From assembly GCA_937893415.1 (NCBI GenBank), contig CALBWZ010000335.1, positions 1 through 11,263 of the forward strand: 11,263 bases of DNA, given 5' to 3'. Positions 7,445-10,267 of the stretch are shown in pieces. The DNA comes from an uncultured Comamonadaceae bacterium (GTDB taxonomy: Bacteria > Pseudomonadota > Gammaproteobacteria > Burkholderiales > Burkholderiaceae_C). Position numbers and translations under genes: made by a program. The notes beneath the pieces are model-generated. The model was given only the letters and a program-made list of their open reading frames with translations, was not told the origin of the DNA and did not search any database. How positions within the stretch are numbered: the first letter of the stretch is position 1; every line of letters begins with the position of its first letter.

Positions 7445-8905
7445 ATGACCAGTCGAACACCCACCATTGCCCGCTTGCAGACAGCCCATCAATATTTGTT
7501 GGAGCTGCATGGATTAACAGAAACACATTTGCGCCGCGCTTTAGGCGACATGCTCAGTGCAGGTGTTGATGATGCTGACCTGTATTTTCAGTACACCCGG
7601 TCAGAGGGGTGGAGCTTGGAAGAGGGCATTGTTAAAAGTGGCAGCTTCTCTATCGACCAAGGTGTCGGGGTACGTGCCATCAGCGGCGAAAAAACAGCAT
7701 TTGCCTATTCCGACGATTTGTCATGGACGGCCTTACGTGACGCCGCGCACACGGTGCGCACCATTGCCAACCAAGGGCAAGAAAAACGTATCAAAGTGCC
7801 CAGTAAAAAAATTGCACCAGCACGCAGCCTGTATGGCGCAGGTGACCCCACCCAAAGTTTAGACAGCGCCTCTAAGGTTGCGTTGCTGGAAAAAGTTGAG
7901 CGCTTGGCCAAAGCGGCTGACAACCGTGTGGTGCAAGTAATGGCCAGTTTGGCCAGCGAGTTTGACGTGGTGATGGTGGCTAGGGCAGACGGTGTAATGG
8001 CTGCTGACGTGCGTCCTTTGTCGCGTTTATCTGTGACTGTGATTGCCCAACAAGGCGATAGGCGCGAGGTGGGCAGTGCGGGCGGTGGTGGTCGTTTGGG
8101 GCTGGATATGTTTGATGACGCCTTGGTCGCACAGTACGTGCGTGAGGCCGTTGGCAGCGCCATCATTAATTTAGACGCGCAAGCTGCGCCTGCTGGCGAA
8201 ATGACGGTTGTTTTGGGCTCAGGCTGGCCAGGTATTTTGCTGCATGAGGCCATTGGCCACGGCTTGGAAGGCGATTTCAACCGCAAAGGGTCTAGCGCAT
8301 TTGCGGGCAGAATTGGCGAGCGCGTGGCTGCCAAAGGCGTGACGGTGTTGGATGACGGCACCATTGCCGACAGGCGTGGCTCTCTCAACATTGACGACGA
8401 GGGCAACACCAGCCAGCGCAACGTGCTCATTGAAGACGGCATATTGTGTGGCTACATCCAAGACAGCATGAATGCGCGCTTAAGCGGTGTTGCACCAACG
8501 GGCAATGGCAGGCGTGAAAGCTATGCCCATGTGCCCATGCCGCGTATGACCAATACCTACATGCTAAATGGTGATCACACGTCTGAAGAAATTATTGGTT
8601 CTATGAAAAAGGGCTTGTACGCCACAAACTTTGGTGGTGGGCAGGTAGACATTACCTCTGGCAAATTTGTGTTTTCTGCCAGCCAAGCTTGGTGGGTAGA
8701 AAACGGTCAACTGAAATACCCAGTCAGGGGTGCCACGTTGGTTGGCAATGGGCCAGATGCCTTGACACGTGTCAGCATGATTGGCAACGACATGGCCCTT
8801 GACAGCGGCGTAGGCACCTGCGGGAAAGAAGGGCAGAGCGTGCCTGTTGGCGTAGGCCAGCCCACCTTGCGCATTGATGGCTTGACGGTAGGTGGTACAG
8901 CCTAA
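7445..8905 (+). CDS. tldD: Metalloprotease TldD
   Basis: The TldD subunit of the TldD/TldE (PmbA) zinc protease, which digests unfolded peptides in the cytoplasm and in known systems matures microcin B17 and degrades CcdA. The 486-residue protein aligns over its length with E. coli TldD (481). It has DADLYFQ and SFSIDQGVGVRAISGEKTAFAY (67-88), the metal motif HEAIGHGLEGDFNRKGSSAF with ligands His267 and His272 and catalytic Glu268, MTNTYMLNGD (368-377), NFGGGQVDITSGKF (395-408) and GTCGKEGQSVPVGVGQPTLR (457-476) with Cys459 at the place of the third zinc ligand. All key residues are present. The ATG at 7445 gives five residues more than E. coli and is the first possible start. No tldE/pmbA partner is in the window, as is usual. 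No strong terminator follows, so read-through into the aroG leader is possible. Confidence 0.96.
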   Translation: MTSRTPTIARLQTAHQYLLELHGLTETHLRRALGDMLSAGVDDADLYFQYTRSEGWSLEEGIVKSGSFSIDQGVGVRAISGEKTAFAYSDDLSWTALRDAAHTVRTIANQGQEKRIKVPSKKIAPARSLYGAGDPTQSLDSASKVALLEKVERLAKAADNRVVQVMASLASEFDVVMVARADGVMAADVRPLSRLSVTVIAQQGDRREVGSAGGGGRLGLDMFDDALVAQYVREAVGSAIINLDAQAAPAGEMTVVLGSGWPGILLHEAIGHGLEGDFNRKGSSAFAGRIGERVAAKGVTVLDDGTIADRRGSLNIDDEGNTSQRNVLIEDGILCGYIQDSMNARLSGVAPTGNGRRESYAHVPMPRMTNTYMLNGDHTSEEIIGSMKKGLYATNFGGGQVDITSGKFVFSASQAWWVENGQLKYPVRGATLVGNGPDALTRVSMIGNDMALDSGVGTCGKEGQSVPVGVGQPTLRIDGLTVGGTA

Positions 8906-8941: not shown

Positions 8942-8958
8942 TATTAATGTGCTACATT
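8942..8958 (+). promoter_or_regulatory. Candidate promoter region of the aroG leader
   Basis: Two overlapping -10 candidates lie here: TATTAA at 8942-8947 and TACATT at 8953-8958, the latter preceded by TG one base away as in extended -10 promoters. TTGTCA at 8915-8920 resembles a -35 box but is 21 bases before the first and 32 before the second, so no pair is ideal. Either would start RNA just before or at the leader ATG. Confidence 0.3.
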
Positions 8959-8966
8959 TCAGATCT

Positions 8967-9041
8967 ATGAACAAACACATATTTTGGTTTGGTTACTTTT
9001 TTATCTCACGCACATTTGGCGGTCGAGAGTTAGTAGCCTGA
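8967..9041 (+). CDS. Aromatic-rich leader peptide of aroG (24 codons)
   Basis: A small ORF from ATG 8967 to TGA 9039-9041, upstream of aroG. The peptide begins MNKHIFWFGYFFISR: residues 6-12 are F-W-F-G-Y-F-F, and Phe17 follows, so 7 of 24 residues are aromatic (5 Phe, 1 Trp, 1 Tyr). This bias fits the product of the next gene, the first enzyme of aromatic amino acid synthesis. By analogy with the pheA and trp leader peptides it would act by where the ribosome stalls, not as a protein. Its Gly18-Gly19 codons are GGCGGT, the sequence able to pair with the terminator 5' arm. A weakness is the lack of a clear Shine-Dalgarno sequence before the ATG. Conservation was not tested. Confidence 0.72.
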   Translation: MNKHIFWFGYFFISRTFGGRELVA

Positions 9042-9091
9042 ACCACACTACTGTTTCTTCTCACTGAACCGCCGCAAGGCGGTTTTTTTTT
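9004..9091 (+). promoter_or_regulatory. Transcription attenuator of aroG (mutually exclusive hairpins)
   Basis: Three pairings compete. (1) An early hairpin inside the leader ORF: TCTC 9004-9007 with GAGA 9025-9028 and CGC 9009-9011 with GCG 9019-9021. (2) An antiterminator: GGCGGT 9018-9023 with ACCGCC 9068-9073. (3) The terminator: AACCGCC 9067-9073 with GGCGGTT 9078-9084. A ribosome stalled on the aromatic codons (8982-9002) would cover or melt the 5' side of hairpin 1, leaving 9018-9023 free for pairing 2 and read-through. A ribosome that reaches the stop codon would cover 9018-9023 and let the terminator form. Pairings are read from sequence; folding energies were not computed. Confidence 0.66.
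9067..9091 (+). terminator. Intrinsic terminator between the leader peptide and aroG
   Basis: AACCGCC, a GCAA tetraloop (GNRA type) and GGCGGTT form a perfect 7-bp GC-rich stem followed by a run of nine T (9083-9091). It ends 16 bases before the aroG ribosome binding site and so does not mask it; it acts on transcription. It lies 160 bases past the tldD stop and inside the aroG leader, which points to attenuation more than to simple tldD termination. Confidence 0.9.
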
Positions 9092-9118
9092 GCACTATCT
9101 AAATTCCAGGAGCCCACC

Positions 9119-10267
9119 ATGAGTAGCAAGACCAAGGCAACCAGCACAGCCAATCCCGCCGCAAGCTGGTACAACCAGGTCGAGAAAACCAGCCAGACCG
9201 ACAATGAGCGCATCAAGGACATCAACGTGTTGCCCCCTCCTGAGCACTTGATTCGCTTCTTTCCCATTGCCGGTACGCCTGTTGAAAGTCTGATTTCATC
9301 AACGCGCGGCCATATTCGCAGCATGATTGAAGGCAAAGACGATCGCTTATTGGTGGTAATTGGCCCTTGTTCTATTCATGACCCAGCCGCCGCTATGGCG
9401 TATGCCAAGCGTCTTAAAGTACTGCGCGATACATACGCCGACACACTGGAGGTGGTGATGCGTGTTTACTTTGAAAAGCCACGCACCACAGTGGGCTGGA
9501 AGGGTCTGATTAACGACCCTTATATGGATGAGAGCTTTCGCATCGACGAAGGTTTGCGCATGGCGCGTCAGTTGTTGATTGAAATCAACCGTTTGGGCTT
9601 GCCAGCGGGCAGTGAGTTTTTAGATGTGATATCGCCGCAGTACATTGGTGATTTGATTGCTTGGGGTGCCATAGGTGCTAGAACCACAGAGAGCCAAGTG
9701 CACCGCGAACTGGCCTCTGGCTTGTCCGCGCCTATTGGCTTTAAAAATGGCACAGACGGCAACATCAGAATTGCCACAGACGCCATCCAAGCAGCCGCGC
9801 GTGGGCACCACTTTTTGTCGGTACACAAGACGGGCCAAGTGGCCATTGTGCAAACCAACGGCAACAAAGATTGCCACGTCATTTTGCGTGGCGGCAAAGC
9901 GCCCAACTATGACGCGCAAAGCGTTCAAGAGGCTTGCGAGGAACTCACTGCGTCTAAGCTGCCAGCGCGCTTAATGGTGGACTGTAGCCACGCCAACAGC
10001 GCCAAGCAGTTTGGGCGTCAACTGGACGTTGCAAAAGACGTGGCAAAACAAATTGCGGCGGGCTCCAAGAGTGTGTTTGGCGTGATGGTGGAAAGCCATT
10101 TGTTTGAGGGAGCGCAGAAGTTCACTCCAGGCAAAGACAAGGTGGAAGACCTTGTCTACGGTCAAAGCATCACAGACGCTTGCTTGGGATGGGACGACTC
10201 TGAAGCCGTGTTGGCGGTGCTCAGTAATGCTGTGGAAACGCGCAGGGGCAGATCCGTTCAAGCCTAG
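9119..10267 (+). CDS. aroG: 3-deoxy-7-phosphoheptulonate (DAHP) synthase, class I
   Basis: Condenses phosphoenolpyruvate and erythrose 4-phosphate to DAHP, the committed first step of the shikimate pathway, in the cytoplasm. The 382-residue protein matches the E. coli AroF/G/H type along its length, with about 25 extra N-terminal residues. Visible blocks are LLVVIGPCSIHDP (78-90), RVYFEKPRTTVGWKGLINDP (115-134), WGAIGARTTESQVHRELASG (182-201), GFKNGTDG (207-214), VDCSHANS (287-294) and VESHLFEG (324-331). The four metal ligands are present: Cys84, His291, Glu325 and Asp353. The phosphate-binding Arg188 and Lys209 are also there. A clear ribosome binding site, AGGAG at 9108-9112, lies 6 bases before the ATG. 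It is preceded by a candidate aromatic attenuator. Which amino acid inhibits the enzyme cannot be told from sequence alone. Confidence 0.97.
   Translation: MSSKTKATSTANPAASWYNQVEKTSQTDNERIKDINVLPPPEHLIRFFPIAGTPVESLISSTRGHIRSMIEGKDDRLLVVIGPCSIHDPAAAMAYAKRLKVLRDTYADTLEVVMRVYFEKPRTTVGWKGLINDPYMDESFRIDEGLRMARQLLIEINRLGLPAGSEFLDVISPQYIGDLIAWGAIGARTTESQVHRELASGLSAPIGFKNGTDGNIRIATDAIQAAARGHHFLSVHKTGQVAIVQTNGNKDCHVILRGGKAPNYDAQSVQEACEELTASKLPARLMVDCSHANSAKQFGRQLDVAKDVAKQIAAGSKSVFGVMVESHLFEGAQKFTPGKDKVEDLVYGQSITDACLGWDDSEAVLAVLSNAVETRRGRSVQA

Follow-up and report, generated by a model that had tools for sequence, protein, structure and literature searches.

A candidate ribosome-mediated attenuator with a mixed aromatic, apparently leaderless leader ORF upstream of aroG in Comamonadaceae and other Burkholderiales

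Layout of the aroG upstream region

The window, i.e., the whole stretch of 11,263 nucleotides analyzed here, carries tldD upstream of a short leader ORF, an intrinsic terminator, and aroG. The product of aroG matched TIGR00034 (aroFGH) with 533.9 bits, against a cut-off of 173.2. The features of the locus are as follows.

7445-8905: tldD, the upstream gene (NCBIfam TldD match)
8948-8958, plus strand: extended -10 element TGTGCTACATT, without a -35 consensus (motif spacing in the close set of relatives)
8967-9041, plus strand: leader ORF of 24 codons without a Shine-Dalgarno sequence; the mRNA probably begins with it (leaderless)
8982-9002, plus strand: putative regulatory codons F-W-F-G-Y-F-F, residues 6-12
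9004-9007, plus strand: region 1 (UCUC), partner of GAGA in region 2 (window's own fold)
9018-9029, plus strand: region 2 (GGCGGUCGAGAG), 5' strand of the predicted antiterminator
9058-9073, plus strand: region 3 (UUCUC ... ACCGCC), common to the antiterminator and, via ACCGCC, to the terminator
9066-9091, plus strand: intrinsic terminator, with GGCGGTT as region 4 and the T-run at 9083-9091
9108-9112, plus strand: aroG Shine-Dalgarno sequence AGGAG, 6 nt 5' of the aroG ATG (9119)
9119-10267, plus strand: aroG, DAHP synthase (TIGR00034)

The leader ORF starts with ATG at 8967-8969, ends with TGA at 9039-9041, and encodes MNKHIFWFGYFFISRTFGGRELVA; no NCBIfam model names this 24-residue product. 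An earlier sequence-only reading had described an ORF of 24 codons with 5 Phe, 1 Tyr, and 1 Trp, followed by a terminator with nine T, a ribosome binding site, and a DAHP synthase gene, and all of these counts and positions checked out. The terminator hairpin at 9066-9085 has the form GAACCGCC-GCAA-GGCGGTTT and runs into the nine T residues at 9083-9091. Its GNRA loop (9074-9077), which the sequence-only reading had emphasized, is present in the window, but the loops vary among relatives. The span proposed in that reading, 8967-9118, leaves out the conserved promoter element at 8948-8958. GGCGGT at 9018-9023 is complementary to ACCGCC at 9068-9073, the 5' arm of the terminator, and the folding of the leader region was better than that of shuffled sequences (z = -2.69, with 1 of 200 shuffles as good).

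Conservation of the leader ORF and of the RNA strands

A protein search yielded 592 confirmed stretches, the best 80 of which were taken as aroG loci; they come from Comamonadaceae and their near relatives. Two loci with 22 nt of upstream sequence (L026 and L065) and one whose 110 nt include a leader and lack a terminator (L071) were dropped, and the remaining 77 relatives and the window formed the close set (n = 78). An ATG-initiated leader with an aromatic run and a terminator preceded aroG in 78/78 members, with a leader consensus of roughly M...FYFAYFWFS..GGRE. When one fixed finder was applied to the 260 nt upstream regions of the close set, a density of 6 or more aromatic residues in 10 was found in 73/78 real sequences, compared with 2/1560 dinucleotide shuffles and 0/78 reverse complements. 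The same density was found in 0/40 aroG upstream regions without an adjoining model match, these 40 being a part of all such places; the widest scan of no-match upstream regions (760 nt) gave 5 aromatic residues in 8 as its best result, once (L138).

The leaders of the close set contained on average 4.5 Phe, 1.6 Tyr, and 0.9 Trp residues; Trp was present in 71/78, Tyr in 76/78, and at least three Phe in 77/78. The aromatic codons varied synonymously (TTT 229, TTC 92; TAC 74, TAT 46), which indicates that the amino acids, and not merely the letters, have been kept. At the four codons that close the run, which lie closest to the switch, the commonest residues were Tyr, Phe, Trp, and Phe (51, 60, 54, and 70 of 78, respectively). 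Given the average content of the three residues, the leader probably senses each of the three products of the pathway, and the mixed aromatic sensing suggested by the sequence-only reading is plausible. One close-set leader, L055, is divergent (MKNFLQFGFFKNF...), and its regions 2 and 3 have changed together (GGGGCGGCU with AGCCGCCCC).

Alignment A1 contained three recurring strands: region 2, about CCGGCGG-nn-GAGAG and lying inside or ending the ORF; region 3, about AACCGCCGG; and region 4, about CCGGCGGTT, just 5' of the T-run. The terminator pairing (3:4) was intact in 96.1% of cells, compared with 28-66% for slid versions; column shuffles, given the near-invariant columns, still reached 95.2%. 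The 1:2 hairpin, consisting of UUCUC:GAGAG plus two inner pairs, was paired in 90.3% of cells, compared with 49-71% when slid, and showed 11 further pair types versus 6.5 in shuffles. The antiterminator pairing (2:3) was present in 77.9% of cells, with 92% for the GGCGG part and 58% for the GAGAG part, and no covariation above shuffles was found in the close set (77.9 vs 77.6% paired). Across families, the inner 2:3 pair beside GGCGG was CG in 60, UA in 16, UG in 5, and GC in 1, and was unpaired in 20 of 102 leaders. In permutations of this pair, the pooled set, with kinship ignored, never reached the observed value, while the close and distant sets did so in 94/10000 and 732/10000 permutations, respectively. 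This test left out 5 of 107 rows lacking an exact GGCGG (L004, L060, L076, L085, and L093), and L108 and L114, which have GTG starts, and L115-L117 were not taken in. The predicted antiterminator and the terminator are mutually exclusive, since their complementary strands have region 3 in common.

GGCGG lay in frame 0 (Gly-Gly) in 66/75 close leaders, whereas it lay in frame 2 in 21/27 distant leaders, and it was located 8-12 nt past the last aromatic codon in 66/75 and 20/27, respectively. The frame thus differs between the two sets while the spacing to the aromatic run holds, which indicates that GGCGG has been kept as RNA. Judged from these alignments, it is the codons that are conserved in the aromatic part and the RNA in the GGCGG part, which fits the requirement of an attenuator mechanism.

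The effect of the ribosome position was simulated for 75 close and 27 distant leaders by masking the ribosome footprint and cutting the transcript 5' of region 4. In the 75 close leaders, the mean antiterminator probability was about 0.9 with the ribosome on the run and 0.62 at the last aromatic codon, and fell to 0.32, 0.07, and 0.01 at one, two, and three codons past the run, respectively. The 27 distant leaders behaved like the close set, and other footprint edges displaced the switching by roughly one codon. Switching was seen in 99/102 leaders, and 3/102 never formed the antiterminator. The mean antiterminator probability was 0.47 without a ribosome (0.30 for the window) and 0.51 with the stop codon occupied by a ribosome (1.00 for the window). 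Since the antiterminator also forms in these two situations, the off state is not accounted for by equilibrium folding in this model, and the gap must be filled by basal readthrough or by timing outside the simulation. In a published model, a race between ribosome and polymerase is described as the source of attenuation sensitivity (PMC1183508).

Transcription start region and distribution of the leader

The motif TGnTAnnnT ended 6-9 nt 5' of the leader ATG in 78/78 members of the close set, and at 6-8 nt in 76 of them. At the same spacing, it was found in 59/15600 shuffles and at 0/1693 other ATGs of the same loci. Positions outside the forced pattern were also conserved, namely the G of TGTG (76/78) and the A of the hexamer (76/78). 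No -35 consensus was found upstream of the leader, and a generic promoter scan returned nothing at 8948-8958. The anti-Shine-Dalgarno energy averaged 0.0 at the leader starts, with 0/78 at -5 or below, compared with a mean of -5.6 at the aroG starts, where the best value among several possible starts was taken. The extended -10 ending 6-9 nt before the ATG, together with the missing Shine-Dalgarno sequence, suggests that the leader mRNA is probably leaderless, starting at or beside the AUG. The distant set (n = 29) had an extended -10 at this spacing in 8 cases, a bare TAnnnT in 6 more, and neither in 15. The leaderless trait is therefore not universal, 15/29 distant leaders having no -10-like site at that spacing.

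Covariance model R1 matched 195 of 200 family genomes, once each except in one genome, and the position of the match before aroG was confirmed in seven of these genomes. In the order, 36/150 genomes matched; all 32 matches outside the family were fetched, and 31 lay directly before an aroG homologue with an aromatic leader, while one was false. These 31 leaders, 29 with ATG and two with GTG starts, were distributed over 12 further families. In the class, 6/184 genomes matched. Two of them belong to the window's family; two more come from a single family of another order and have the leader before aroG; the other two matches were false. The two loci from the other order, L182 and L183 (genomes G147 and G010), carried a leader of this type immediately upstream of aroG, with a GTG start in L183. 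The matches L113 (E = 0.0016), L184 (5.8e-4), and L185 (0.0072) were rejected as terminators not adjoining aroG; since L114 (0.0031) was a true match, E-values in this range fail to separate true from false.

Relatives that keep the terminator and lose the frame or the aromatic codons had been named in the sequence-only reading as evidence against an attenuator. The close set, with the leader in every member, contained none, and the 31 order-level leaders pointed the same way. The exception was L155 (genome G502), in which a -10-like TGATAGCAT and the terminator are kept and the aromatic ORF is lost; its tree neighbor L112 has the ORF.

A tree was built from a sample of 73 AroG proteins, among them 20 from the 77 close loci and the products of 20 genes without a leader. 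In one supported clade (95/87), the leader was present for 46 genes and absent for 5, and six more leader-bearing genes from two families lay outside it. This pattern fits an old unit with several losses, or else may reflect a second origin or transfer.

Several loci showed individual features. L066 (record named Solimonas sp. SE-A11 and labelled Nevskiaceae) has the leader and aroG without tldD upstream and nests beside Variovorax (97/92); either the unit was transferred or the record is mislabelled. L098 and L103 (genomes G402 and G521) have one leader followed by two tandem aroG genes. In L120 and L121 (genomes G454 and G411, 1.7-1.9 Mb), aroG directly follows tldD and the leader is absent; in L120, TAAAAT is found 6 nt upstream of the ATG of aroG, so that aroG itself may be leaderless there. 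The window's own genome has a second DAHP synthase gene (L002, 1459-2580), which is 54% identical, lies a few bases behind another ORF, and has no leader.

Proposed mechanism, alternative explanations, and known systems

The leader ORF (8967-9041), the terminator (9066-9091), and aroG very probably constitute a ribosome-mediated transcription attenuator acting through the aromatic leader peptide, and the comparison with relatives thus supported the central proposal of the sequence-only reading. The basis in sequence and comparison comprises the ORF, its codons, the terminator, the complementary strands, their spacing, the promoter motif, and the missing Shine-Dalgarno sequence. In the proposed mechanism, transcription would start at or next to the leader AUG, on which the ribosome would load without a Shine-Dalgarno sequence. 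When charged tRNA-Phe, tRNA-Tyr, or tRNA-Trp is scarce, the ribosome would stall at 8982-9002, and region 2 (9018-9029), left uncovered, would pair with region 3 (9058-9073); no terminator would then form, and RNA polymerase would read into aroG. Under good charging, the ribosome would move past the run and cover region 2, or the 1:2 hairpin would hold region 2, so that region 3 would pair with region 4 and transcription would stop at 9083-9091. A shortage of any single one of the three amino acids would suffice. This reading would give the 24-residue ORF a role.

The hairpin might instead be only the terminator of tldD, with the ORF a chance frame. tldD was indeed found in the fetched upstream flank at 66/77 loci, but the leader persists at the 11/77 loci without detected tldD upstream (one with only 170 nt to inspect), L120 and L121 have tldD before aroG and yet no such terminator or leader, and the conservation of aromatic codons speaks against a chance ORF; this explanation was rejected as extremely improbable. 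We also regard it as very unlikely that the region is a riboswitch or a protein-binding leader in which the ORF is secondary. The strong conservation of GGCGG-NN-GAGAG as RNA would suit such an element, but the aromatic codons are kept with synonymous changes, and no family of Rfam release 15, leader families included, matched at the gathering score. The sub-threshold matches look like chance, and a known Rfam family was accordingly rejected; one of them, a match to RNAI in L090 (E = 0.071), overlaps the leader there at its terminator end.

Two further alternatives retain the attenuator and alter a part of it. It is rather unlikely that the leader mRNA starts further upstream and that TGTGCTACATT is a site of another kind: the missing -35 consensus near TGTGCTACATT and the 15/29 distant leaders would agree with this, but the spacing of TRTGnTAnnnT in 78/78 leaders and the lack of a Shine-Dalgarno sequence argue for a start at the AUG. 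A response in practice to Phe alone, with the Tyr and Trp codons incidental, seems unlikely. Phe is the commonest aromatic residue, but Tyr and Trp are missing from only two and seven of the 78 leaders, respectively, and both are prominent among the four codons nearest the switch.

E. coli aroG is a textbook target of TyrR. A search for a TyrR-type HTH (TIGR04381) was positive in E. coli, one of 14 control genomes, and found none in the window's own draft genome. Such a protein is likely, though not certainly, absent, as the draft comprises 468 contigs and is 97% complete. We lean toward the reading that, in the family of the window and in 12 or more further families of the order, one leaderless ORF with the consensus Tyr-Phe-Trp-Phe as its last codons polls three tRNAs, so that any one shortage would open aroG and replace the role of TyrR in E. 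coli; the leaderless part of this reading applies to the window's family and part of the other families. DAHP synthase sets the flux of the aromatic pathway, and a whole family and part of an order appear to use tRNA charging where E. coli aroG has TyrR. A compact, apparently leaderless RNA responding to three products would offer a clean system for studying multi-input attenuation and the coordination of first-ribosome loading with RNA polymerase.

The aroG leader thus appears to be a classical ribosome-mediated attenuator that is new and widespread, its unusual features being the mixture of three aromatic amino acids and the apparent leaderless start. In agreement with the sequence-only reading, we found no description of a leader for a betaproteobacterial aroG in searches of open-access papers; one may exist in print. 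The pheA, pheST, and trp leaders of enterobacteria are leader-peptide attenuators and likewise combine a leader ORF rich in codons for the pathway product with an alternative antiterminator and terminator. Unlike them, the aroG leader would act on the first common enzyme, has three aromatic amino acids in one leader, and lacks a Shine-Dalgarno sequence. The ilv and thr leaders also carry codons for several amino acids in one leader and poll them likewise, in pathways other than that of aroG.

Attenuation has also been proposed for other DAHP synthase genes. The uORFC-13-1 motif before Acholeplasma aroF is a predicted leader ORF with a terminator (PMC8632094); by its description, it belongs to another phylum, has 24 representatives and a ribosome binding site in its consensus, and is described with Phe codons only. 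Predicted attenuators have been listed for Vibrio aroF-tyrA (PMC1173090, Table 7) and Shewanella aroF (PMC2659441), and an older attenuation idea is recorded for E. coli aroF (PMC2659441, PMC8632094). By description, the Vibrio and Shewanella cases concern a gamma-proteobacterial paralogue that is tyrA-linked or Tyr-sensitive. The attenuator RNA of S. meliloti trpL (rnTrpL) is described as beginning with the ATG of the leader ORF (PMC7298713), and the aroG leader RNA would resemble it in beginning at the leader ATG. The S. meliloti system has a 14-residue Trp leader before trpE(G) (PMC7298713), compared with aroG and three amino acids in the present case.
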